Source: Desulfitobacterium dehalogenans ATCC 51507 (GTDB lineage: Bacteria; Bacillota; Desulfitobacteriia; Desulfitobacteriales; Desulfitobacteriaceae). Taken from it: a DNA stretch of 64,000 bases. Shown here piece by piece: positions 668-54,713 of the stretch; positions within the stretch are counted from its first letter, which is position 1, and every line of letters begins with the position of its first letter. A model generated the notes under the pieces. It was not told where the DNA came from. It searched no databases and saw only the letters and a list, made by a program, of their open reading frames with translations. Location: the NCBI RefSeq assembly GCF_000243155.2, contig NC_018017.1:1922001-1986000 (forward strand), written 5' to 3'. The position numbers and the translations under genes are program-made.

Positions 668-2344
668 TTGCTCATTGAAACCATTGAAGTTACCCTGGTG
701 CAAAGTTCATTGCACTCTATAACGGAGCAAATGGCTCATGCCCTTTTGCATTCAGCTCGTTCTCTCAATCTCAGCGAAGCCCGGGATTTTTGCACCGGAC
801 TTTACGGTTCCCGGGGCGAGATCATAGAGCAGACAGAATTCATCCCCCTTTTAGCCTATACGGTACCCACATCCATCAAAAATATCGTGGATTTTTTCGA
901 GGAAGATATCCGGCCCGGGGATATTTTTATCCACAATGATCCTTTTACTGGGGGCAATCAAGCCACCGATGTCAAAATCGCCAAGCCCATCTTCCATGAA
1001 GGTCGGTTGGTGGCCTGGGCTGCCATCAATGCTCATCAAGCCGATGTGGGAGGGTGCATTCCCGGCGGCTATAACCCCTGTGCTACGGAAATCTGGCAGG
1101 AAGCTCTTCGTATCCCTCCTGTTAAGCTGTTTGATGGGGGAGTCAAAAGAAAGGATGTTTGGCGGCTGATTTTCAGCAATATCCGTTACTCTATTGTGGA
1201 AGACGACATCCTGGCCATGATCGGGGGATGTACCATCGGCGAACGGGAATTGGTCAAGCAGATTGAAAAGTGGGGTTACGAAAGATTCTCGCAAAATCTG
1301 CAAAAGCTTTATGATCAAACGGAAAAGATGGTTCGCGAGGAATTCCTGCGGATCAATAACGGGGTGTACTACGGTGAAAGCATGGCTTATGATGACGGAA
1401 TCAAAGGGGAAAAGGCCATGCCCATTAAGGTTAAGATCACCGTGCAGGATGATCAGATGACTTTTGATTTTACGGGCACGGCGGAACAGACAGCAGGTTA
1501 TGTCAATGCTCCATATCCTGTGACTCTGTCCGGTGTTCTTCTCACCTTGCTCATGTGTCTTGAGTATGCAGATATACCTCGCAATGAGGGTATGTTGCGG
1601 CCGGTTCGGGTGATCGTTCCGGAAGGATGCCTGCTCAACCCCAGATTTCCGGCTGCCACGGGTTTTGGCAATCACTTAGTGGATCAGATCGGCGAAGCTG
1701 TTATGCAAGCCCTCTTCCCCGCCTTGCCGCAAAGGGTCACTGCCGGTTGGAATCATATGCTCTGTGTCCTCCTTTCCGGCCATGACTCGAGGAAAAACAG
1801 TCCTTTTGCCCATATGCTGATCAATGCCTGCAAAGGGGGCGGCGGTGCTTCTTTCGGTGCCGATGGTTATAACCATATCGGCTTCATTGGAGGAGGCGGG
1901 GGAATTGCCGCCCAGGATCCGGAGATGTTTGAACTGGAAGCTCCGGTCCATTTTCACAAATTCGAATATGCTCCGGACTCCTGCGGCTCAGGACAGTGGC
2001 GTGGGGGTCTGGGAGTAGAGACACAGGTGGAATTTTTGGAAGATGTTCAATGCAGTATTTTCGGGGAAGGTCTTGTACCCCAAAGCTGTGCTCCGGGTAT
2101 CTTAGGCGGTCACCCCGGACGATCAAACACCGCAAAAATCATCTACCCCAACGGGGAGGTCTATTACCCTAAGGCCAAGGAATTTATCCCGCTTCTTCCC
2201 AATGGAACACGGTGGCATCAGATCGCCGGTGGCGGTGGCGGCTATGGCAGTCCCCTGGAAAGAGAAAAGTCAAGAGTTCGCGAGGATATTCTGGAAGGAT
2301 ACATTACCCTTGATAAAGCCAAGAAGGACTATGGTTGGGAATAA
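668..2344 (+). CDS. Hydantoinase/oxoprolinase B subunit (HyuB family)
   Basis: Full-length B subunit (558 residues from the chosen start), partner of the A subunit just upstream. The open frame reaches back to a TTG at 623 overlapping the previous stop, but a GGGGGAGG site at 651-659 lies 8 bases before the TTG at 668, and the protein from there begins ETIEVTLVQSSL, matching the usual HyuB N-terminus. Family signatures seen: ERRDF-like EARDF, DIFIHNDPFTGG, ATGFGNH and the glycine-rich C-terminus AGGGGGYGSPLERE. It should form the ATP-dependent amidohydrolase or carboxylase complex with the A subunit. No transporter or regulator is visible in the window to define the substrate. Confidence 0.9.
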   Translation: MLIETIEVTLVQSSLHSITEQMAHALLHSARSLNLSEARDFCTGLYGSRGEIIEQTEFIPLLAYTVPTSIKNIVDFFEEDIRPGDIFIHNDPFTGGNQATDVKIAKPIFHEGRLVAWAAINAHQADVGGCIPGGYNPCATEIWQEALRIPPVKLFDGGVKRKDVWRLIFSNIRYSIVEDDILAMIGGCTIGERELVKQIEKWGYERFSQNLQKLYDQTEKMVREEFLRINNGVYYGESMAYDDGIKGEKAMPIKVKITVQDDQMTFDFTGTAEQTAGYVNAPYPVTLSGVLLTLLMCLEYADIPRNEGMLRPVRVIVPEGCLLNPRFPAATGFGNHLVDQIGEAVMQALFPALPQRVTAGWNHMLCVLLSGHDSRKNSPFAHMLINACKGGGGASFGADGYNHIGFIGGGGGIAAQDPEMFELEAPVHFHKFEYAPDSCGSGQWRGGLGVETQVEFLEDVQCSIFGEGLVPQSCAPGILGGHPGRSNTAKIIYPNGEVYYPKAKEFIPLLPNGTRWHQIAGGGGGYGSPLEREKSRVREDILEGYITLDKAKKDYGWE

Positions 2345-2549
2345 AGTATGGATTTGTCGCAGTAAGACAGCTCTAAATAACAGTTTTTATTTGTCCAAGA
2401 TAGATGCGGTAAGTTTTGTCCAGATGTTTTTGGAAAAAGATATCGGGTTCCACGGCAAGTCCATGTAAGTAGAGCAGACTTCTTACCTCTCTCATGCACT
2501 TCCTATGACTGACGGAGAATGCCTTCCGGTAAAAACTCCGGGTATTAAA

Positions 2550-2588
2550 AAGGCTAATGTCCAACGAGTTCAGTTGAACATTAGCCTT
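2550..2588 (-). terminator. Intrinsic terminator of the cation-pump operon
   Basis: A 16-bp stem with one mismatch (arms 2550-2565 and 2573-2588) around a short loop, followed on the minus strand by a T-run. It sits 10 bases past the ATPase stop codon. The A-run at 2546-2550 gives the minus-strand T-tract, so it mainly serves the minus-strand operon. Confidence 0.75.
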
Positions 2589-2597
2589 GCTGTTTAT

Positions 2598-5246
2598 CTA
2601 AGATCGTCGCAAGAAGGTTTTATAAATCTCCTTAAGAATCAGGGGAATAACAGCTAAGCTAAGGACGATACCCCAGTCTCTTAAGGACAGCATTTGCAGT
2701 TTAAAGGCGCTGGAGAGGAAGGGGACGGAGATGACCGTCAGCTGCAGTAGTAAGCCGACGATAATTGCTCCGATCAGATATTTGTTAGAGAAGAAACCTA
2801 GGGTGAAGATGGATTTAGTGGCGCTTCTCATGGCCAGAGAGTAGAAGAGCTGGGAAGCAGCCAGGACGACGAAGGCCATAGTACGGGCATAGGTGAGGAC
2901 ATCGTCGGGGATCGCCATGGAGCCTAAGGAATAACCGTATTCACGAAGTCCCACATAAAAGGCTACCAGGGTCAACGTGCCGATCAGTACACCGCCGATG
3001 ATGGCCCGGACCCCTGCTCCGTGGGCAAAGAAGCTTTCTTTGGGGTCACGGGGTTTTTGGCGCATGACTTCTTTATCCCCGGGATCGACCCCCAGGGCAA
3101 TGGCCGGCAGGGTATCAGTGATTAAGTTAATCCACAAAAGCTGAGTGGCGAGAAGAGGAACAGGCCAGAAAAAGAGAACCGAGAAGAAGATAGCGATAAT
3201 CTCTCCCAGGTTACAGGAGAGGAGGAAAATCACCGACTTCCTGATGTTGTTATAGATATTCCGGCCTTCCTCAATAGCATGGACGATGGTGGTGAAATTA
3301 TCATCGGTTAAGATCATATCCGCGGCACCTTTGGAGACATCGGTACCGGTTATCCCCATGGCTACTCCGATGTCGGCGTTTTTCAAGGAAGGAGCATCGT
3401 TGACTCCATCTCCCGTCATGGAGACGATGTTGCCATGGGATTTGAAGGCTTTGACGATTTTAACCTTGTGCTCCGGGGAAACCCGGGCAAAGACCCGCAG
3501 GCTGCCGATGCGTTCGGAAAACTCTGCATCGGACAATTCGTCGATTTCAGCGCCGGTCATGCTTTCCTCTATGGACTCAGCGATCCCTAATTCTTTGGCG
3601 ATAGCTACGGCGGTGTTTTTATGGTCTCCGGTAATCATAATCGGTGTGATTCCTGCCAGCTTGGCATCCCGGATGGAATCCTTGACTTCCAGACGGGGAG
3701 GATCGATCATGCCGACCATACCGAGGAGGGTAAGGTCCTGCTCCATCTCCTTGGGGCTGATCATGGTATCAACATCTTTATAGGCGGCACCCAGTACCCG
3801 CAGGGCAGCATCGGACATTTCATCAGCCATACGAAGGTACTCTTTCTTCATTTCTTCCGTGAGGGGGACTACTTTTCCTTCGACTAAAGCAGTGGTTGAG
3901 ATTTTGAGAAGGTTATCAATAGCTCCTTTGGTATGTACCCGGTACCCTCTATCTTCTTCATTAAGGGTGGACATGAGCTTGCGGTCGGAATCGAAGGGAT
4001 GTTCACCCACCCGCTTATGTTCGGCATTCAAGGTTTTTTTCCCCAGGTTAAAGCGATCCCCTAAGACCACCAAGGCAATCTCCGTAGGATCTCCTGTGCC
4101 CTGGCCATGTTCATAGGTAGCGTCCGAGCAAAGGACCAAGGTTTTCATCAGGTCTTTTTCCTGAAGGCTTGCGTTAAAACCGGAGCCCTCCCGGGGAACT
4201 TCCTGCAAATCGTTCAGTGTGTAATACTTAACCACGGTCATTTGGTTTTGGGTCAGGGTCCCGGTTTTATCTGAACAAATAATGTTTACGGAGCCCAAGG
4301 TTTCCACGGCGGGCAGCTTTTTGACAATGGCGTTGATTTTGGACATCCGGGTAACTCCCAGGGCCAGGACAATGGCGACAATGGCGGGAAGACCCTCGGG
4401 TATAGCGGCCACAGCTAAGCTAATGGCGGTCATGAACATCTCAAAGAGATCCCGTTTCTGGAAAAAGGAGATCACAAAGATGAGGACACAGATGCCGATG
4501 GCCAGATACCCCAAAACCTTCCCTAACTCTTCCATTCTTTTTTGCAGGGGGGTCATCTCATCAATCTCTTCGTCGAGAATCTTAGCGATTTTTCCGATCT
4601 CTGTTTCCATGGCGGTCCCCACCACTACCCCTTCCCCCCGGCCATAAGTGGCTAAGGTGGACATGAAGGCCATATTCACCTGATCGCCAAGGGGAGTTTT
4701 AGGGTCCTTAAGAGTTTCCTGGGCAATTTTTTCCGTGGGAACGGATTCACCCGTGAGAGCAGACTCTTCAATCTGGAGATTGGCGCTCTCAATAAGGCGC
4801 AGGTCTGCCGGGATAAAGCGGCCTGCGTCGATGAGGATGATGTCCCCCGGGACCAGTTCCTCAGATGAGATCTCCACGACTTCTCCATTCCGTCGGACCA
4901 GTGTCTTGGGTGTGCTCATTTGCTGCAAGGCTTCGATAGCTTTTTCCGCTTTGAATTCTTGGAACACCCCAATGACTGCATTGAGGACCACCACCAGAAG
5001 AATGATGATGGAGTCCACATATTCTCCGATAAACAGGGTGATCAATGCCGCGCCGATCAGAACATAAATTAGCATATCTTTCAATTGGGCGAAGAACAAA
5101 GCGATTAAGCTTTTCTTGGGTTTTCCTTTAAGCTTATTGGCTCCGTACTTCTCCAAACGGGTTTGGACTTCCTGGCTGGAAAGTCCGGTAGCAGGGTTCA
5201 CGTTGAGCTCTCGAAGTACTTCTTCTTGAGATTTGGCAAACCACAT
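2598..5246 (-). CDS. P-type (P2A) Ca2+-translocating ATPase
   Basis: About 882-residue cation pump of the SERCA/PMR1-like bacterial P2A group. Seen in order: cation ATPase N-domain, TGES actuator loop (~residue 166), the membrane helix motif PEGLPA (~283), the phosphorylation site DKTGTLT (~326), GDGVNDAP hinge, and the M5/M6 residues NLGE and NLITDTLPA that correspond to calcium ligands in SERCA. This points to Ca2+ (possibly Mn2+) export. A TTG at 5264 is also in frame, but the ATG at 5246 has an upstream GGAG and gives the family-like N-terminus MWFAKSQEEVL. It is transcribed after the CDF exporter gene with only ~35 bases between, so the two form a cation-export operon. Confidence 0.93.
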   Translation of the reverse strand: MWFAKSQEEVLRELNVNPATGLSSQEVQTRLEKYGANKLKGKPKKSLIALFFAQLKDMLIYVLIGAALITLFIGEYVDSIIILLVVVLNAVIGVFQEFKAEKAIEALQQMSTPKTLVRRNGEVVEISSEELVPGDIILIDAGRFIPADLRLIESANLQIEESALTGESVPTEKIAQETLKDPKTPLGDQVNMAFMSTLATYGRGEGVVVGTAMETEIGKIAKILDEEIDEMTPLQKRMEELGKVLGYLAIGICVLIFVISFFQKRDLFEMFMTAISLAVAAIPEGLPAIVAIVLALGVTRMSKINAIVKKLPAVETLGSVNIICSDKTGTLTQNQMTVVKYYTLNDLQEVPREGSGFNASLQEKDLMKTLVLCSDATYEHGQGTGDPTEIALVVLGDRFNLGKKTLNAEHKRVGEHPFDSDRKLMSTLNEEDRGYRVHTKGAIDNLLKISTTALVEGKVVPLTEEMKKEYLRMADEMSDAALRVLGAAYKDVDTMISPKEMEQDLTLLGMVGMIDPPRLEVKDSIRDAKLAGITPIMITGDHKNTAVAIAKELGIAESIEESMTGAEIDELSDAEFSERIGSLRVFARVSPEHKVKIVKAFKSHGNIVSMTGDGVNDAPSLKNADIGVAMGITGTDVSKGAADMILTDDNFTTIVHAIEEGRNIYNNIRKSVIFLLSCNLGEIIAIFFSVLFFWPVPLLATQLLWINLITDTLPAIALGVDPGDKEVMRQKPRDPKESFFAHGAGVRAIIGGVLIGTLTLVAFYVGLREYGYSLGSMAIPDDVLTYARTMAFVVLAASQLFYSLAMRSATKSIFTLGFFSNKYLIGAIIVGLLLQLTVISVPFLSSAFKLQMLSLRDWGIVLSLAVIPLILKEIYKTFLRRS

Positions 5247-5281
5247 TGTTTGATCACGCTCCAATCTCTATTGGTATAATC

Positions 5282-6448
5282 TTAAACTAAAGCGGTGACT
5301 GAATTAACAATAACGTTAAGCAGGGGGTCTTTTTCTTTTAGTTTATGAATAATATCCTTTCGGATAGTATCGGCATCGGGTACCTGGGGAGAAGGAACGG
5401 ATAATTCAAAGATCACGTTCATACAGCGATAGCCTATGGTCATACGGATATTATGTGCGGCAAAGGAGCTATTTACTTCCTTTAGAGCGGATTTAACCAT
5501 CTCCTTCATCGCATTAATTTTTTCTTCATCAGTAGTAATGGGATCGATATGAATGACAATAGTGATGTTCAATTCCTCAGAGATGCGCTTTTCAAGGTCG
5601 TCAATAATCATGTGGGCGTCGACACTATTCACAGTGTCCAGGATTTCCGCATGAATGGAGGCAATGGTTCGGCCTGGGCCATAATCATGAACTTTTAAAT
5701 CATGGGTCCCTACAATGTACATTCCTTCACTGACCATATCCTTAACTTGATTAGCCAGTTCGGTATTGGGGGAAGAGCCCAATAAGATATTGATCGTTTC
5801 TTTGGCGATAGTATACCCTGAATAAAGGATGAAAAGGGAGATGAGAAGACCCATGTATCCGTCAATGGCGAGGCCAAAATAATGACCAATCAGTGTGGAG
5901 AGGATGACAGCACTGGTGGCCAAGGCGTCATTGAGACTGTCATAAGCAGTGGCCCTATTTATTCCCGAATTAATGATATTCCCGATGGTGCGGTTATAGG
6001 AGAACATCCAGATTTTTAAGGCTACGGAAAAAAGGAGAATAACCAAAGAAATCCAACTGAAAATGACCACATCTGGATGAAGGATCTTATTGAAGGAGTT
6101 TTTGAGAAGTTCGAAGCCTACCATAAAGATAATAAAAGCAACAACCAGGGAAGAGATGTATTCTATTCTGCCGTGGCCAAAGGGGTGCTCTATATCCGGT
6201 GGTCGGTTGCTCATTTTCGCTGCGATGATGGCGATGATGGAGGAGCCGCAATCGGAGAGGTTATTAAAGGCGTCGGAAATAACGGCGATACTGTTCATAA
6301 AAATCCCCAGCAAAAGCTTAAGTATAAATAAAATCAGGTTGCAGATGATACCTAATACTCCCGCTAAGACTCCATATCTCTCACGAACCCGCTTGTCTGA
6401 GATGTTGTCATATTGAGGAATAAAGCGATGAATGATGAACTTGATCAA
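5282..6448 (-). CDS. Cation diffusion facilitator (CDF) transporter, manganese-type signature
   Basis: 388-residue CDF family proton/metal antiporter with six predicted membrane helices and a long cytoplasmic C-terminal domain. Metal-site residues are visible in TM2 (DAFNNLSD) and TM5 (DSLND). An Asp rather than His at the first TM5 position is the pattern of the manganese-transporting CDF branch (MneP/MntE-like), so Mn2+ efflux is the best inference. The start is TTG at 6448, chosen because AGGAAAGGGG lies 8 bases upstream. The protein carries an extra ~80-residue C-terminal extension compared with FieF. It heads the operon with the P2A ATPase. Confidence 0.88.
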   Translation of the reverse strand: MIKFIIHRFIPQYDNISDKRVRERYGVLAGVLGIICNLILFILKLLLGIFMNSIAVISDAFNNLSDCGSSIIAIIAAKMSNRPPDIEHPFGHGRIEYISSLVVAFIIFMVGFELLKNSFNKILHPDVVIFSWISLVILLFSVALKIWMFSYNRTIGNIINSGINRATAYDSLNDALATSAVILSTLIGHYFGLAIDGYMGLLISLFILYSGYTIAKETINILLGSSPNTELANQVKDMVSEGMYIVGTHDLKVHDYGPGRTIASIHAEILDTVNSVDAHMIIDDLEKRISEELNITIVIHIDPITTDEEKINAMKEMVKSALKEVNSSFAAHNIRMTIGYRCMNVIFELSVPSPQVPDADTIRKDIIHKLKEKDPLLNVIVNSVTALV

Positions 6449-6670
6449 TGGTTTACCCCTTTCCTAAGCGGATGCTTCAAGGCATAGCATCCCAAAGATT
6501 TGTCACTTTGATTCGAAGAAGAAATGAGGTATTATAGAAAGGTATTATAATGGAAGTGTCCTAAGGAAAGTATAGATTAAGATTCTAGACATCGGTAAGT
6601 TGTTCCTATAATATAATAATATCATGCTCAAGATAATTACAAAAATAGCAGTACATAAGGTGGATAAAAC

Positions 6671-7570
6671 ATGATTGACTTTAAAAAGGTAGAGATAAGC
6701 GATAAAGAGTGGGTCAAACCGCTGCTCAGAGCCTCGGATCTTAGCGGCTGTCATCAAAATTTTACGAACTTATTCTCATGGTCGGAGACTTATCATTATC
6801 AGGTGGCTAAAGTGAATGATTACCTCGTTGTCAAAGGACGGCTCGAAGAAACCTATTATTATTTTTATCCGGCAGGCACCGGTGATGTTCAACCGGTCCT
6901 GGAAGAAATGAAAAAAGATGCCCAGGAAAATAACCATGAATTTATTGTGCTGGGAATTTCCCTGGAAAATATGGCGACTTTAAAAGAAGTGTATCCTGAG
7001 CATTTTGAATATGAGGAAATGCGGGATAGCTTTGATTATGTCTATCAGGCTGAAAAATTGGCTTCCCTGGCCGGAAGAAAGCTGCAAGCCAAACGAAACC
7101 ATATCAATCGTTTCATCGCCAACACTACCTGGTCCTTCGAACTCATTACTCCGGAAAATCTGGCTGAATGCTGGGAAATGAACCTGGAATGGTGTCGGAA
7201 AAACGATTGTAAAGATGATGAACAGCTGAGAGCTGAATACTGTGCTGTAAAACGGGATTTTGATCACTTCAGGAATTTGGAACTCGAAGGGGGATTAATC
7301 CGCGCAGAGGGCAAGATCGTGGCCTTTACCATGGGGGAGCGGCTCAATTCCGATACTTATGTGGTACATGTAGAGAAAGCCTTCGGAGAGATTCAGGGAG
7401 CTTATCAAATCATTAACCGGGAGTTTGTGAGATGGATCAGGGAAACCTATCCGGATATTATCTATGTGAATCGGGAAGAGGACATGGGATATGAGGGCTT
7501 ACGCAAGGCAAAACTATCCTATCACCCAGATAAAATGGAAGAGAAATTCTTAGCTCGGTATTTTGCTTAG
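6671..7570 (+). CDS. DUF2156 / phosphatidylglycerol lysyltransferase C-terminal-like protein
   Basis: 299-residue cytosolic protein resembling the GNAT-fold catalytic half of aminoacyl-phosphatidylglycerol synthases (MprF), without the membrane flippase part. Features that match DUF2156: the N-terminal CHQNFTNLFSW segment, the RKLQAKRNHINRF region, and the C-terminal YVNREEDMGYEGLRKAKLSYHP segment. Known members may transfer aminoacyl groups, but the acceptor is not known for stand-alone forms. RBS AAGGTGG precedes the ATG. A hairpin follows and another GNAT-fold gene comes next, so the two may be cotranscribed. Function of this member is not established. Confidence 0.85.
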   Translation: MIDFKKVEISDKEWVKPLLRASDLSGCHQNFTNLFSWSETYHYQVAKVNDYLVVKGRLEETYYYFYPAGTGDVQPVLEEMKKDAQENNHEFIVLGISLENMATLKEVYPEHFEYEEMRDSFDYVYQAEKLASLAGRKLQAKRNHINRFIANTTWSFELITPENLAECWEMNLEWCRKNDCKDDEQLRAEYCAVKRDFDHFRNLELEGGLIRAEGKIVAFTMGERLNSDTYVVHVEKAFGEIQGAYQIINREFVRWIRETYPDIIYVNREEDMGYEGLRKAKLSYHPDKMEEKFLARYFA

Positions 7571-7590
7571 GTAATTATATCATTGTATTT

Positions 7591-7628
7591 TTCCGCTCTG
7601 CTTAAACTGCGTTTAAGGGGAGCGGTTT
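7591..7628. terminator. Hairpin between two acyltransferase genes
   Basis: Strong stem: CCGCTC at the left pairs with GAGCGG at the right, with an inner perfect CTTAAAC/GTTTAAG stem around a 3-base loop. T-richness on either side is modest, so it may act as a weak terminator or an mRNA-processing/stability element between the genes ending at 7570 and starting at 7654. Confidence 0.45.
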
Positions 7629-7653
7629 GACTTTTCACGATAAGGAGATTTCT

Positions 7654-8583
7654 ATGAAGGAAATGCGGCTGGCCCTTTGGTCCGATGTAGAGCGCCTTAA
7701 AGGTATCTGGAAGCTTTGCTTTGGGGATTCGGACTCCTTTATTGACTTTTATTTTACCCAGCGCTTCCAGCCGGAGCAGGTAGCAGTTTATCTTGTCGAC
7801 CATGTCATTACGGCTATGCTTACCATGATTCCAGTCCAATGGCTGGAGGCCCATGAGGGGCAGAAAAGTATCCAGGGTTCTATGCTTTATGCCATTGGGA
7901 CTCATCCGGATTTTCAGCACCGGGGGATTGCCACGGAGCTGATGGATTGGGCCTTAGCATACCTGGGGAAGCGGCAGATGGAATTGTGTGTACTGGTACC
8001 CGCAGAAGCGGAGTTATTTAACTTTTATGAGAGGCGAGGGTATCAGGCAGGATTTGCCCTCCGTGAAGCGGTATTGAACCGCAATGAGATTGAGGTAATG
8101 TGTGCATCCTCAGGCATTAATAGGGAGGACAGATCCGGGTTTGCGGTTTCGGCGGCTGCTCCCCAAGCCTATAACAGCATCCGCAACCAGCTTCTCCGGG
8201 GAGCAACCTATCTAGCCTACAGGGAAGAGGAGGTTGCGTATCAAAAGAAGATCTCCCGGCTTTCTGGAGCAGATCTCTACAAGTTCAATGTGGGGGAAGT
8301 TCAGGGGTGTGCCGCTGTTGAACGTTTGACTGGAGATAAGGTTTTGGTTAAGGAGTATCTGGTTCCTGAGGAGTTTTTTTGTCACGGATTGAAGGCCTTG
8401 GCCCATACTCTCCAGGCTCAGGAGTTCATTATCAGGACCCCTGCCCATGGGGGTCAGGTTATGGGGGGTCAAGTCCGATCCTTTGGAATGTTTAAAAGGA
8501 TAAGTTCACGAGAGCTGGGACCCGTTCATCATCAGAATGAGATATTCGAAGAAAGAGCTTACCTCGGGCTTGCTTTCGACTAA
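7654..8583 (+). CDS. GNAT family acetyltransferase with C-terminal SCP2-like region (Eis-like)
   Basis: About 309 residues. The N-terminal half is a GNAT acetyltransferase: the acetyl-CoA-binding segment GTHPDFQHRGIATELM and the later EAELFNFYERRGYQ strand are clear. The C-terminal half resembles the lipid/sterol-carrier-like domain of the Eis family of enhanced-survival N-acetyltransferases. The TTG at 7627 is also in frame, but AAGGAG at 7642 lies correctly for the ATG at 7654. It follows the DUF2156 gene in the same direction. The acceptor (an amine of a small molecule, peptide or antibiotic) cannot be inferred. Confidence 0.8.
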   Translation: MKEMRLALWSDVERLKGIWKLCFGDSDSFIDFYFTQRFQPEQVAVYLVDHVITAMLTMIPVQWLEAHEGQKSIQGSMLYAIGTHPDFQHRGIATELMDWALAYLGKRQMELCVLVPAEAELFNFYERRGYQAGFALREAVLNRNEIEVMCASSGINREDRSGFAVSAAAPQAYNSIRNQLLRGATYLAYREEEVAYQKKISRLSGADLYKFNVGEVQGCAAVERLTGDKVLVKEYLVPEEFFCHGLKALAHTLQAQEFIIRTPAHGGQVMGGQVRSFGMFKRISSRELGPVHHQNEIFEERAYLGLAFD

Positions 8584-8619
8584 ATTAAACCCGCCTTTGG
8601 GACGGGTTTAATTCCTTTT
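8584..8619 (+). terminator. Intrinsic terminator after the GNAT gene
   Basis: Perfect 10-bp stem (ATTAAACCCG / CGGGTTTAAT) with a 9-base loop, followed by TCCTTTTT, immediately after the stop codon. Confidence 0.85.
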
Positions 8620-8676
8620 TAACGTATTTTATTGTAATATTATATTCGATAGATTAAATATAGAGGAGATGAACAA

Positions 8677-9534
8677 ATGGCTGTCCGTGTGTTAACCGAT
8701 AGCACATGCTACATAGACGATGAAGCGAGAGAAGAATTGGACATAAGACGGGTGTCTTTGAATGTCTCTTTTGGTGATCAATCACTGCGGGAAAGCGATC
8801 TATCCAATGAAGAGTTTTATGAGATGATGGAAGCCAAGGGGATACCCACCTCTTCACAACCTTCTGTCGGTGAACTTTATCAGGAGATGGAAAAAGTGGT
8901 CTCGGCAGGTGAAAGCCTGTGCGGGATTTTCCTATCCTCGGATATGAGTGGAACTTTTTCTACAGCTCAATTGGTTAAAGAAATGATATTGGAAAAATAT
9001 CCTGATGCCCAGATCGAAATCATTGATTCCCGCTCCAATTCCATGCAATTAGGATTTGCTGTTATACAGGGAGCTCGTGCAGCCAAAGCGGAGAAGAGTC
9101 TTGCTGAGGTCAAAGAGATTGTGCTGCAGAATATTAAACGTAGCCGTTTTTTGTTTATACCGGATAATCTGGATTATTTGAAAAAGGGTGGCCGTATCGG
9201 CGGAGCTGGTGCCTTAATCGGCAATCTGTTTAAAATTATTCCTATCCTGACGGTGGAAGAGGGGAAGGTCCTTGTCCTGACCAAGGTGCGGCATAAGGAG
9301 AAAGCCGTGTTGGCTATGATTGATAAGATGCTTCAGGACATTGGCAAATATGGGTTGGGGGAGATTGCCGTTCACCATATCAATTGCCTCGATGAAGCTC
9401 AAGCTTTAGTGAAAAAGATTAAAGATACGGTCACTGCCAATATTAAGGTAATGCCTATCGGTCCGGTGATCGGACTCCATGTTGGCCCCGGAGCCATTGG
9501 GATCGTTTATTACACAGAAAATGATTTGCGGTGA
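8677..9534 (+). CDS. DegV family fatty-acid-binding protein
   Basis: 285-residue DegV (FakB-type) protein. These bind a single long-chain fatty acid and, in Firmicutes, present it to the fatty acid kinase FakA for phosphorylation. Seen: N-terminal VLTDSTCYIDDE, TSQPSVGELY, SSDMSGTFSTA, the DSRSNSMQLG region and KKGGRIGGAGALIGNLFKI, all characteristic. AGGAGA lies upstream of the ATG. Its stop codon overlaps the 3' end of the convergent methyltransferase gene by 25 bases. FakA is not in the window. Nearby genes (PlsY-like, N-acyltransferase fusion) also deal with acyl groups. Confidence 0.92.
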   Translation: MAVRVLTDSTCYIDDEAREELDIRRVSLNVSFGDQSLRESDLSNEEFYEMMEAKGIPTSSQPSVGELYQEMEKVVSAGESLCGIFLSSDMSGTFSTAQLVKEMILEKYPDAQIEIIDSRSNSMQLGFAVIQGARAAKAEKSLAEVKEIVLQNIKRSRFLFIPDNLDYLKKGGRIGGAGALIGNLFKIIPILTVEEGKVLVLTKVRHKEKAVLAMIDKMLQDIGKYGLGEIAVHHINCLDEAQALVKKIKDTVTANIKVMPIGPVIGLHVGPGAIGIVYYTENDLR

Positions 9535-10412
9535 GGAATTTTATCCTTAAAGATTTTAAGGTTATTAAGAAACCTTTCTTTAAGGGTGGGCTTTTTGGGC
9601 GGTTCAGGGGGTGTGGGTTTCCTGCCACAGATCAAGCCAAAACCGAAATACCCTTTATAGTTTTTCATAAAGTTGGCATTCTGCTGCAAGCGTCTGTATA
9701 GGCCCGGGTGACTGGAGACCTTTTGCACCAGATCCTTGACAAGCATCCAGTCTTTTTTCAGCTCGTTTAAGATGAGGTTGCTGTTGGTGTTTCGCAAAGC
9801 TTGGGGATTTTTGATTTCCACATCCTCAAACCCTGCTTCTGCCAGGGTTTTGCTCCATTCCTCAAAAGACAGGGGAGCGGTGCCTTTGCCATAACAGAAC
9901 TCCATCTGAGAGCGAAGTTGGGGGGGCAGCTCATAGAGTAAAGCCATCTCCAGATCGGCAATCCGGCCTTCGGGCTTTAAGACACGAAAGAACTCTTTGT
10001 AGACTTTTTCTTTATCTAAGAAGACAGTAATGGATTCGCACATGACCCAATCAAAGTGATTGTCGGGAAAGGGGAGGCTGTTGACATCGGCTACCCTGAA
10101 TTCCGCCAGATGAGCGACTTCTTCGTGCTCGGCTCTCTGCCGGGCTTTTTCGATCATTTGGGAGTTGATATCCACTCCGATGATTTTGCAGCCCTTGCTT
10201 TTGGCCAACTGACAAACTGTAAGGCCGCTGCCGCAACCTGCGTCAAGAATGAAATCTTCGGAGTTCACATCCATAACTTCCAGGTTTTTGATGGTGGCCG
10301 GAAATCCTCCTGGATGAGAGCTCCCAATGCCCAGCCAGGCTAAGAGCTCAAAGTAATTCATGTCTCCAACGGACTTGTTTTTTTCTATCGATCCATGTTG
10401 AATGGCTTCCAT
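9510..10412 (-). CDS. Class I SAM-dependent methyltransferase
   Basis: 300-residue methyltransferase with the motif I loop LDAGCGSGLTVCQLA, acidic motif II end GVDIN, and motif post-II VADVNSLPFPDNHFDWV. The open frame extends upstream to 10475, but the ATG at 10412 has a GGAAGG site in position and a normal N-terminus. The family resembles ubiquinone/menaquinone or sterol-type small-molecule methyltransferases; the substrate is unknown. It is divergent from the PlsY-like gene, sharing a ~125-base promoter region, and converges with degV with overlapping 3' ends. Confidence 0.85.
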   Translation of the reverse strand: MEAIQHGSIEKNKSVGDMNYFELLAWLGIGSSHPGGFPATIKNLEVMDVNSEDFILDAGCGSGLTVCQLAKSKGCKIIGVDINSQMIEKARQRAEHEEVAHLAEFRVADVNSLPFPDNHFDWVMCESITVFLDKEKVYKEFFRVLKPEGRIADLEMALLYELPPQLRSQMEFCYGKGTAPLSFEEWSKTLAEAGFEDVEIKNPQALRNTNSNLILNELKKDWMLVKDLVQKVSSHPGLYRRLQQNANFMKNYKGYFGFGLICGRKPTPPEPPKKPTLKERFLNNLKIFKDKIPHRKSFSV

Positions 10413-10538
10413 GCTACCCTTCCTTTCTCTTAACAGAAGGTAATAAACGGTAAGGAATATGGCAAGATATTCCATGCATGTGGTAGTATATTCCTGAAGG
10501 GGAAGAAATGAAGCTTAACCCTATGGAGGGAGACTGGG

Positions 10539-11120
10539 ATGATCGACCTGTTCATGATTTGTGGCGCCTATCTCCTGGGGGGGATGAGCACCGGGTACTA
10601 CCTTGTCAGACTGTGGCAAAAAGATGATGTTCGTAACTACGGGTCCGGTGCGACGGGGGCAACCAATGCGGGAAGAGTTCTGGGGAAGAAAGGATTTTTT
10701 CTTACCGTAATGGGTGATGCCCTCAAGGGAGCATTTCCACCGGCCTTATCCATGCTCTTGAATCTATCCCTGACTACCCTTATTCTTTGCCTGATTGCAG
10801 TAGTTGCCGGTCATATCTAGCCTCTGCAGCTGGGCTTGCGCGGGGGGAAGGGAGTGGCTCCGGCGCTGGGAGGAATACTGGTTATCGATCCAATCCTGGC
10901 TTTGACTGCTGTGGTGATCTTCCTGTTTGTCTTAGTCTTGACACGCCAATTTACCTTAAGCGGCTTAGTAGTGATTCTGGGTGCTCCCGTCCTATCCTTC
11001 ATCATGGAGAGACCTATTGAGCAGTCTGCAGGTCTGGCTGTCCTGGCTATCCTCATTCTCTTTGCTCATCGGAAGAATATCCAGGAGATGGGGAAGAAAA
11101 CATTGCAAAGGAGAAGGTAA
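10539..11120 (+). pseudogene. plsY: PlsY-like glycerol-3-phosphate acyltransferase interrupted by an in-frame UAG
   Basis: A 193-codon PlsY homologue, the membrane enzyme that acylates glycerol-3-phosphate from acyl-phosphate. Codons 1-93 give the N-terminal half (GSGATGATN, GDALKG) up to GHI, then TAG at 10818-10820, then the same frame continues PLQLGLRGGKGVAP and the C-terminal helices to the TAA at 11118. There is no frameshift and nothing else is missing. In PlsY the residue after GHI is normally aromatic (F/W/Y), so TGG to TAG is the simplest origin. It may be a pseudogene, or UAG may be read through; Desulfitobacterium hafniense is known to encode pyrrolysine insertion. GSGATGATN differs from the usual GSGNIGATN, so this could be a paralogue. 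The next gene overlaps its stop by one base. Confidence 0.85.
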
Positions 11121-12754
11121 TGGCAAGAACGGATTTGAGATTTAAAATTGCCACTAGTAAAGAGGAATTTGAGCAAATCCATCACTTAAACTACAAAACC
11201 TTTGTCAAAGAAATTCCTCAACATGAAGCGAATAGCCAGGAAAGGCTGATCGATCCCTTTCACCCGGAAAATATCTACTGCATCTGTCTGCGTCGGGGGA
11301 AGCTTGTGGGGATGTTGGCTTGCCGGGATAAACGTCCTTTTTCGATCGATCGGAAATTAGAGGATTTAGATTCTTATCTGCCTCTCCATAGCTCAATCTG
11401 TGAAATTCGTCTATTGGCCGTGGAGAAGGATGTGCGGGGAACGCGAGTGCTGCTGGGTCTGATGAGTCTGCTTTTTGAGCATTGTCAAAAACAGGGCTAC
11501 GACTTGGCTGTAATCTCTGGTACAGTACGGCAGTTGAAGTTATATAATCACCTGGGATTTAAACCCTTTGGCCCTCTGGTAGGGACAGCGGCGGCTTCTT
11601 ATCAGCCCATGTACATTACACGAGAGCATCTAAGCCAAAAACTTATAGAATTGCTCGATACCTTCAGAAGCAAAGATGATTGGAGAGAAAGTGTGAATTT
11701 TCTTCCCGGGCCGGTCAGGATTCGTCAGGAGGTGCAAGAGGCCTTTAAGAGAGCTCCTTGCTCCCATCGGTCTGAGGAATTCTCGGCAGCTATGGCTGGG
11801 ATCAAAAAGGATCTGACCCAATGGCTGAAGGCTCGACACGTCCAGATTCTGCTGGGATCAGGGACTTTGGCCAATGATGTGGTGGGGGCTTATCTATTCG
11901 CCATGATGGGCAAGAAAAAAGGCCTGGTTCTCAGCAACGGAGAGTTCGGGAACCGCTTGCTGGATCAGGCACGACGGGCAGGTCTCAATTTTGAAGAACA
12001 CGCCATTCCCTGGGGGAAAGGGTTCGATTATAAGGAAATCGAAAAGCGGCTGGATAAAAGGGATGACCCGCTTCAGTGGCTCTGGGCAGTTCATCTGGAA
12101 ACCTCCACAGGGGTGCTCAATGATTTGCCAAGGCTGAAGGATCTTTGCTGCCAACATCAAATCGCTCTGGCTGTGGATTGCGTGAGTTCCATCGGTGCTG
12201 TACCTATGGACTTAAGCGGGGTCTATCTGGCTTCAGGAGTTAGTGGCAAAGCGCTCTGCTCCTATCCTGGGCTGAGCTTTGTCTGCTATAATCAGGTGCT
12301 CAAAGGCGGAACATTGCCCCGTTATATGGATCTGGAGTTATATCAACAGTCGGAGGGGGTTCCTTTTACCCAATCCTCCAATCTCGTCTATGCTTTGCAA
12401 CAGGCCTTAGAGTATGCAGTGGATAGAGATATGAGCATTAATCAAAGACTGGGGGAGTGGCTCAGGGCTAAGCTGCAGGAACTTGGAATTCAGGTATTGG
12501 CCTCTGCTGAAGAGGCCGCCCCGAATGTTCTTACCCTGGTACTGCCTCAAGGAATCAGGTCCATAGAATGTGGTGACAAATTGGAAAAAGAGGGCTATGC
12601 TCTCAGCTATCGCAGCTCTTATCTTCGCCAGCGTAATTGGATTCAAGTCTGCTTAATGGGGGAGTATGAACCAGAGGAAATTCAGGCATTTCCGGAAGTC
12701 CTCGGGCAATGTATGAAGAAATTAGGATTAAGAGATAGTAAAGAGGGGGAATAG
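11120..12754 (+). CDS. Fusion of an N-acyltransferase-like (GNAT) domain and a class V aminotransferase
   Basis: 544 residues in two domains. Residues ~1-175 are GNAT-fold and resemble the LuxI/FeeM N-acyl amino acid synthase group (FKIATSKEEFEQIHHLNYKTF, then a EIRLLAVEKDVRGTR cofactor-binding strand and QLKLYNHLGFKPFG). Residues ~190-540 are a PLP-dependent class V aminotransferase like alanine-glyoxylate or aminoethylphosphonate transaminase: NFLPGPV start, GSGTLAND, LAVDCVSSIGAVP for the PLP Asp, and VSGKAL for the Schiff-base Lys. The ATG overlaps the TAA of the PlsY-like gene, so they are translationally coupled. A role in making an acylated amino compound or amino lipid is inference only. 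Confidence 0.85.
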   Translation: MARTDLRFKIATSKEEFEQIHHLNYKTFVKEIPQHEANSQERLIDPFHPENIYCICLRRGKLVGMLACRDKRPFSIDRKLEDLDSYLPLHSSICEIRLLAVEKDVRGTRVLLGLMSLLFEHCQKQGYDLAVISGTVRQLKLYNHLGFKPFGPLVGTAAASYQPMYITREHLSQKLIELLDTFRSKDDWRESVNFLPGPVRIRQEVQEAFKRAPCSHRSEEFSAAMAGIKKDLTQWLKARHVQILLGSGTLANDVVGAYLFAMMGKKKGLVLSNGEFGNRLLDQARRAGLNFEEHAIPWGKGFDYKEIEKRLDKRDDPLQWLWAVHLETSTGVLNDLPRLKDLCCQHQIALAVDCVSSIGAVPMDLSGVYLASGVSGKALCSYPGLSFVCYNQVLKGGTLPRYMDLELYQQSEGVPFTQSSNLVYALQQALEYAVDRDMSINQRLGEWLRAKLQELGIQVLASAEEAAPNVLTLVLPQGIRSIECGDKLEKEGYALSYRSSYLRQRNWIQVCLMGEYEPEEIQAFPEVLGQCMKKLGLRDSKEGE

Positions 12755-12757
12755 ACA

Positions 12758-13207
12758 ATGTGGAAAGAATTTAAAGAGTTTGCTATGAAGGGGAATGTCA
12801 TCGATCTGGCTGTGGGTGTCATTATCGGAGGTGCCTTTGGCAAAATCGTGACTTCTTTAGTCAATGATGTAATTATGCCTGTAGTGGGTCTTCTCTTGGG
12901 TCAAGTGGATTTTTCCAATGCCTTTATTACTCTGGGAGATGGGGATTTTGCCACTGTCGCAGATGCTCAGACCGCCGGTGTCCCTACTCTGAATTACGGA
13001 TTATTCATTAATAATATAGTGGATTTTCTCATCATTGCTTTCACTATTTTTATTTTGATTAAGCAGATAAACCGCTTTAATAGACGGAAAGAAGTCAAAG
13101 AAGAGGTGGTGGAGGAAGCAACCACCAAGCCTTGTCCGTATTGTTATGTGGAAATACATAAGGATGCTACACGGTGCCCTCATTGCACTTCGGTCTTAGG
13201 GGATTGA
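12758..13207 (+). CDS. mscL: Large-conductance mechanosensitive channel MscL with C-terminal zinc ribbon
   Basis: 149-residue inner membrane channel that opens under turgor stress. The typical MscL N-terminus is present ([28 protein letters not shown]), followed by the second helix ([22 protein letters not shown]). The C-terminal helix is followed by a CPYC-x11-CPHC motif, a small zinc-ribbon-like tail found on a subset of Gram-positive MscL proteins and absent from the E. coli protein. Its start is 3 bases after the stop of the fusion gene, with GAGGGGGA upstream, so it is probably cotranscribed. Confidence 0.95.
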
Positions 13208-53378: not shown

Positions 53379-54158
53379 TTATTTTTTATCCATTGCGTTG
53401 AGCTCCGCCACCCGGTCTGCTTCAAACTGCTCCATCACCTGGGGCAGATTTTTTTCATCCATGCGCTCTGCGGGGAAATCAGAAAGGGAAAGGGAGTTTA
53501 CCCAAGAGGTTGCTTGATCTTCCTTTTCGGGCTTATTGGCAAGGGGGAGGAGGCGAACGCTGTACTGGCTGACCGGAATATTCTCTTCTTTGAGAACAAT
53601 CTCCAAAGCTTTGGCTACTTCGGCAATTTTATTGTAGGAAAGGTCATCGCTGTAGAGGGTAACGTCCGCTATAAGGGGCAGAGGAGGATGATGAATATCC
53701 AGCTTCATGTCACGCTCAAGCTTCATGAGATCATGGTCATCCTTTGTAAACGGGAAGGAGATATATTCAAAATCATAGTCCAGCCTGCTGCCGATTAGCT
53801 CTTTGGCGATCTCCCGCATCTGGGCATCCAGCCGCCTGAAGGTGGTAAAATTACTGGCGACTTCGTTTTCATAGTTATCACGCAAAACCTTGCCAAAACT
53901 GTCGGTATCAATGCTGAAAGCGGTATCCTCACTTAAGGCTGACTGCACAAATACCTGGTAGGCACCGAACTTAAAGTTATAACCGGAGCTTTGGATTTCC
54001 AGATTCAGGTCGCTGTAGTTGGCGTCAATATACTTCTGAGCGGCTTGTTTGGCCAATAGATTGGAGACGGGGTTGCCCACCCAGGCGTTGACAAATAGAA
54101 ACAGCAGGACAATCAAGCCGATTCCGGTGATTCCCGCCAGTATTTTTTTGATGTTCAT
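53379..54158 (-). CDS. YfjL-like membrane-anchored protein (module 2)
   Basis: 259 residues: one N-terminal membrane helix (AGITGIGLIVLLFLFVNAW) and a soluble extracytoplasmic region in the style of YfjL-like proteins (NPVSNLLAKQAAQKYIDANYSDLNLEI...YNFKFGAYQVFVQS). No catalytic motif is seen. It is transcribed after the sigma and anti-sigma genes, with 6 bases between it and the anti-sigma gene, and may sense or respond to the envelope stress handled by module 2. Confidence 0.7.
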   Translation of the reverse strand: MNIKKILAGITGIGLIVLLFLFVNAWVGNPVSNLLAKQAAQKYIDANYSDLNLEIQSSGYNFKFGAYQVFVQSALSEDTAFSIDTDSFGKVLRDNYENEVASNFTTFRRLDAQMREIAKELIGSRLDYDFEYISFPFTKDDHDLMKLERDMKLDIHHPPLPLIADVTLYSDDLSYNKIAEVAKALEIVLKEENIPVSQYSVRLLPLANKPEKEDQATSWVNSLSLSDFPAERMDEKNLPQVMEQFEADRVAELNAMDKK

Positions 54159-54164
54159 AATTTT

Positions 54165-54713
54165 CTACACCTCTTTCTTAAATGCATAATGCAAGAGCCA
54201 AGCGATCAGAACCCCAACTGCACTGAAAGCGGAAAAAATGGCGGACCACCAGGCGGACATGGAAATTAAGTCAATGATGCCGGTGTAGGTCAGGATTCCG
54301 TCGATGAGTCCACGAACGAATACCCAGATAAAGGAGAAGGCAAACAGGCCCAGAGGAACAAAATAGGCTTTCCTTTTGAACAGCATATATCCAAAGCCGC
54401 CTATGGCAGGCATGATCAGCCCATTGTAGAACATATGCATACCGTTGGAGATGACCATTCCCAGCAGCGTTCCGGCCAACATAATGCTAAGCAGAAATAA
54501 CATCATTTGTTTTTTGATTTTGCCTAACACTACTGTGTCATCCATAGCAGTATCTGCCCCCATATCTGCCTCAGTTTTTTCTCCCCAACTATCCGAACAG
54601 TGCTCACAGCCTGCAAGGTGCTCCTGCACCAGTAGGCGGCTGTCTTCACTGGCGATACCATCCTTGACCAGAGGTATTAAGTCCAGGCAGACAGGGCAGG
54701 AAATCTTATTCAT
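54165..54713 (-). CDS. Zinc-finger anti-sigma factor (module 2)
   Basis: 182 residues: zf-HC2 type N-terminus (SCPVCLDLIPLVKDGIASEDSRLLVQEHLAGCEHC, H-x3-C-x2-C) followed by about four membrane helices (LFLLSIMLAGTLLGMVI, GGFGYMLF, VPLGLFAFSFIWVFVRGLI, SAIFSAFSAVGVLIAWLL). It overlaps the end of the sigma gene by 8 bases, with AAAGGAGGG located inside that gene. It should hold the module 2 sigma factor at the membrane. Confidence 0.85.
   Translation of the reverse strand: MNKISCPVCLDLIPLVKDGIASEDSRLLVQEHLAGCEHCSDSWGEKTEADMGADTAMDDTVVLGKIKKQMMLFLLSIMLAGTLLGMVISNGMHMFYNGLIMPAIGGFGYMLFKRKAYFVPLGLFAFSFIWVFVRGLIDGILTYTGIIDLISMSAWWSAIFSAFSAVGVLIAWLLHYAFKKEV

Follow-up and report, generated by a model that had tools for sequence, protein, structure and literature searches.

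We report that the accessory plsY-like gene of Desulfitobacterium dehalogenans, at positions 10539 to 11120 (+ strand) of the 64,000-nucleotide stretch of DNA analysed here (the window), is a single frame broken by one in-frame TAG at codon 94. Judging from the sequence, we put a probability of roughly 0.7 on this TAG being a recent nonsense mutation in an accessory and dispensable paralogue of plsY, with incidental suppression by pyrrolysine (Pyl) being possible. The event would be a recent G-to-A change on the D. dehalogenans lineage that turned TGG, a codon for a Trp that is invariant elsewhere, into TAG. The original prediction offered four options for the TAG, namely a nonsense mutation, a strain difference, a sequencing error or a UAG-decoded membrane protein; among them the nonsense mutation is best supported, by the TGG of all relatives, the spare plsY and the missing recoding context, while UAG decoding stands as possible only.

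The interrupted frame and its intact paralogue

Apart from the TAG at 10818-10820, the plsY-like frame is open, and it encodes a membrane protein of the acyl-phosphate:glycerol-3-phosphate acyltransferase family. Its first half (10539-10817, + strand) has 93 codons, ends just past the GHI of the GHxW motif, and matches positions 2-78 of the Pfam profile PF02660 (G3P_acyltransf) with an E-value of 1.4e-20; the second half (10821-11120, + strand), which holds the GGKG loop, the equivalents of His177 and Asn180 and the terminal TAA, matches positions 80-163 with an E-value of 2.6e-15. As the profile positions of the two halves are consecutive, the stop position alone is missing, and on these matches a chance arrangement of the two halves is excluded. 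Read through, the whole frame matches PF02660 with an E-value of 3.9e-41 (141.3 bits, cut-off 24.1) and the PlsY model TIGR00023 with 140.7 bits, above its cut-off of 137.2. This is in accordance with the original prediction of one PlsY-like frame cut solely by a UAG, and the overlap it described with the start of the next gene is also found, with the ATG at 11120 and the TAA at 11118-11120.

Unless it is read through, the TAG removes the equivalents of GGKG, His177 and Asn180, and the frame is not that of an uninterrupted PlsY. Normal termination would yield a 93-residue fragment that ends ahead of the equivalents of Lys104, His177 and Asn180; missing the GGKG loop and the substrate-binding residues of the C-terminal part, it should be inactive. 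It is unlikely that the two halves are started separately and form a split enzyme, as the first fragment would have no GGKG loop. Two in-frame restarts were considered: a GTG at about 10854, with a purine-rich stretch upstream, would also start past GGKG, and a TTG at 10836 lacks a clear ribosome-binding site.

A search for another plsY had been suggested, and a second, intact housekeeping copy is present in the genome (G000:C1:2839893-2840420). Compared with it, the interrupted copy is a paralogue, 36% identical. The loss of the plsY-like gene would be survivable, because this separate plsY is intact and the downstream gene retains an intact frame with a ribosome-binding site of its own.

The codon in relatives and the age of the stop

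On the whole, eight orthologues of the plsY-like gene are found across the order, and all eight have TGG at codon 94. The same-genus orthologue (genome G001) is 81% identical over the whole gene, 87% in the first half and 74% in the second; identity falls to 55-59% in four genomes from a different genus of the family, and to about 40-43% in three from a different family of the order. In these organisms the housekeeping PlsY has the sequence GHSWNP, with Trp at the equivalent site, where the N tabulated for it reflects one-residue alignment shifts and the real residue is Trp. Taken together, the TGG of the orthologues and the Trp of the housekeeping PlsY point to a single G-to-A transition on the D. 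dehalogenans lineage, for which one genome of the species was compared. The site had been described earlier as a conserved aromatic one; it is indeed aromatic, and more precisely it is Trp in every orthologue. Two observations were named beforehand as speaking against UAG decoding, a sense codon in all relatives and no expression downstream of the TAG, and the first of them is what we find. A sense codon in all relatives and a one-step change to a stop on one lineage are the pattern expected of a pseudogene that arose by a recent nonsense mutation. A wider search of genome contigs for other strains gave only a remote relative, and a search of viral contigs gave no match.

The same-genus genome has pylSn and tRNA-Pyl, yet it retains TGG. 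Thus UAG is not conserved among the homologues in Pyl organisms, and on this comparison codon 94 is not a conserved UAG site. This bears on the idea of a selected, dedicated recoding site, in which Pyl would lend the enzyme an activity that is new or regulated. The presence of the Pyl machinery and the open frame are what it has in its favour, while the TAG occurs in no relative and no stable structure lies 3' of it: we detect no PYLIS-like structure there, and the sequence folds no better than its shuffles (z of +1.3 and +0.9). We regard such a site as extremely improbable.

Against disablement, the second half is still constrained and, the TAG aside, the frame has no second lesion. In comparison with G001, dN/dS (NG86) is 0.15 for the first half and 0.21 for the second, with 0.17 for the downstream gene and 0.04 to 0.25 for neighbouring genes; YN00 gives 0.41 for the second half and no value for the first, so that the exact ratio is soft. 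When amino-acid changes in the second half are polarised with four outgroups, 3 fall on the lineage studied here and 6 on that of G001, with 14 unassigned, showing no excess on the D. dehalogenans lineage. The branch lengths are 0.125 here and 0.186 in G001 for the second half, and 0.105 and 0.164 for the downstream gene, a ratio much like that of the second half. A simple Poisson bound, which uses rounded branch lengths and takes the synonymous branch lengths to be 0.20-0.29, rejects the view that the second half has evolved neutrally for longer than about the final 15-30% of the branch. Therefore either the stop is young or a useful readthrough persists, and both fit equally; the continuing constraint is just as expected if readthrough still yields a useful protein.

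It may also be asked whether the TAG is a sequencing error, or a mutation limited to the sequenced laboratory culture. There is one genome, the difference from all relatives is a single base, and the gene is otherwise well kept, as this explanation would have it. On the other hand, the assembly is a single contig, and in finished genomes substitution errors, to which the TAG would belong, occur less often than indel errors. We take this explanation as decidedly unlikely, and an error or laboratory-strain mutation would give the same picture as a recent nonsense allele.

Pyrrolysine and the reading of UAG

The premise that the organism can read UAG as Pyl holds for D. dehalogenans, whose genome encodes tRNA-Pyl, pyrrolysyl-tRNA synthetase and Pyl biosynthesis. 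The bacterial pyl cluster, with pylT, split pylS, mttB, pylB, pylC and pylD, lies at 1835-11850 of locus L045 (G000:C1 about 589834-599850). The tRNA-Pyl (anticodon CTA; L045:1835-1906) directly precedes pylSc, followed by a corrinoid protein gene and mttB, and then by pylB, pylC, pylD and pylSn; the names come from gene order and protein appearance, save those of pylSn, mttB and tRNA-Pyl. The frames of pylSc, pylB, pylC, pylD and pylSn are all intact, and mttB contains the single classical in-frame TAG. A sigma-54-type regulator is also located in the cluster, on the opposite strand. A literature search for D. dehalogenans and pyrrolysine gave incidental mentions only.

The complete system and the TAG-bearing mttB show that Pyl insertion at codon 94 is mechanically possible. 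As tRNA-Pyl and its synthetase are encoded, the cell may form, as a minor product while the pyl genes are expressed, some full-length protein that carries Pyl at residue 94. That the host Pyl system functionally suppresses the amber allele, with the level of full-length PlsY-like protein following methylamine-linked pyl expression, we consider quite unlikely.

As for UAG in general, TAG is the stop codon of 18 of the 53 long ORFs that do not overlap one another in the window; the earlier remark was that many genes end in TAG and that readthrough would have to be local. Among about 180 matches to the ABC_tran, MFS_1 and Molybdopterin families, no lone TAG interruption is seen; the same matches include genes wrecked by several stops and a few with a lone TGA, which in the molybdopterin oxidoreductases probably encodes selenocysteine. 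A general reassignment of UAG is ruled out by these two counts.

A neutral replacement, in which Pyl is inserted at the TAG frequently enough to keep function and the mutation is tolerated, is another explanation, which we hold to be unlikely. The complete pyl genes, the TAG-bearing mttB and the unrelaxed constraint on the second half accord with it, while the last of these is equally predicted by a young mutation. Pyl decoding of UAG is amber suppression for which a mandatory element is unneeded, with an apparent 20-30% of decoding in a reporter (PMC2933860). Precedents are also at hand in Methanosarcina acetivorans and in a similar Pyl drift case proposed for Thermincola potens (PMC3639795). 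However, the invariant Trp lies two residues past the His that binds the acyl phosphate, where a bulky Lys derivative would hardly be accepted; Pyl production is probably tied to methylamine metabolism, while a lipid gene would need a steady supply; and the three large families yield no lone-TAG gene.

If the TAG is simply a stop, as the recent nonsense mutation has it, the gene is a young pseudogene of the ordinary kind, and it warns against taking each lone UAG in Pyl organisms for recoding. Should the TAG be suppressed, the gene would offer a clean test, in a bacterium, of natural Pyl rescue, or tolerance, of amber mutations outside methylamine metabolism, because a same-genus relative has the Pyl system and the TGG allele.

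The two-gene unit and comparison with known systems

The downstream gene (11120-12754, + strand) encodes a GNAT/FeeM-like N-acyltransferase fused to a class V aminotransferase (Pfam PF21926, PF13444, PF00266), and it adjoins the plsY-like gene in nine of nine genomes of the order. Its ATG is preceded by the purine-rich site ggagaagg and its frame is intact, which together with the dN/dS of 0.17 implies no strong effect of the TAG on it. By analogy with ornithine lipids, for which a two-acyltransferase route exists, the pair (10539-12754) may make an acylated amino-lipid, possibly by an uncharacterised pathway; such a role would account for the separate upkeep of this paralogue beside plsY, and for its loss being perhaps tolerated. 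Another lipid-modifying function is found near the unit, as a match to a phosphatidylglycerol lysyltransferase C-terminal domain at 6671-7570.

Two further in-frame TAG junctions occur in the window. At 12752-12758 the terminal TAG of the N-acyltransferase-aminotransferase gene is followed, one codon on and in the same frame, by the start of mscL, where Pyl readthrough would yield an aminotransferase-MscL fusion; the frame match is probably chance, because the same-genus genome has TAA there and the frames differ. At 53379-54713 the TAG that closes a zf-HC2 (zinc-finger, anti-sigma-like) gene is followed in frame by a YfjL-like gene; since the families differ, these are two genes and not one interrupted.

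Compared with Aquifex aeolicus PlsY (PDB 5XJ5), the read-through frame has the equivalents of Ser35, Thr41, Arg45, His92, Lys104, Gly105, His177 and Asn180, of which Lys104, His177 and Asn180 are important residues in the Aquifex enzyme and His92 helps to hold the acyl phosphate (PMC5700162). It differs in having Ala for Asn37, and Gly opposite Ser142 with a Ser one position away. The Aquifex residue at the TAG position is Tyr94, two residues past His92. The read-through frame matches the PlsY family (TIGR00023/PF02660) over its full length, while unlike the family it is broken by the TAG at this Tyr94/Trp position.

Like mttB here and in other Pyl bacteria, the plsY-like gene has an in-frame TAG in a genome with the Pyl system, in which mttB adjoins the pyl genes. 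The TAG of mttB is shared between species and specifies a residue of the active site, while that of the plsY-like gene is unique to one genome. A known parallel is the neutral appearance of Pyl in the tRNA-His guanylyltransferase of M. acetivorans, described by Heinemann et al. in 2009 according to papers that cite the work. Both are species-specific in-frame UAGs in a non-methylamine gene of a Pyl-encoding host; there Pyl insertion was reportedly studied by experiment, while the plsY-like case is drawn from sequence data, and here the replaced residue is an invariant Trp.
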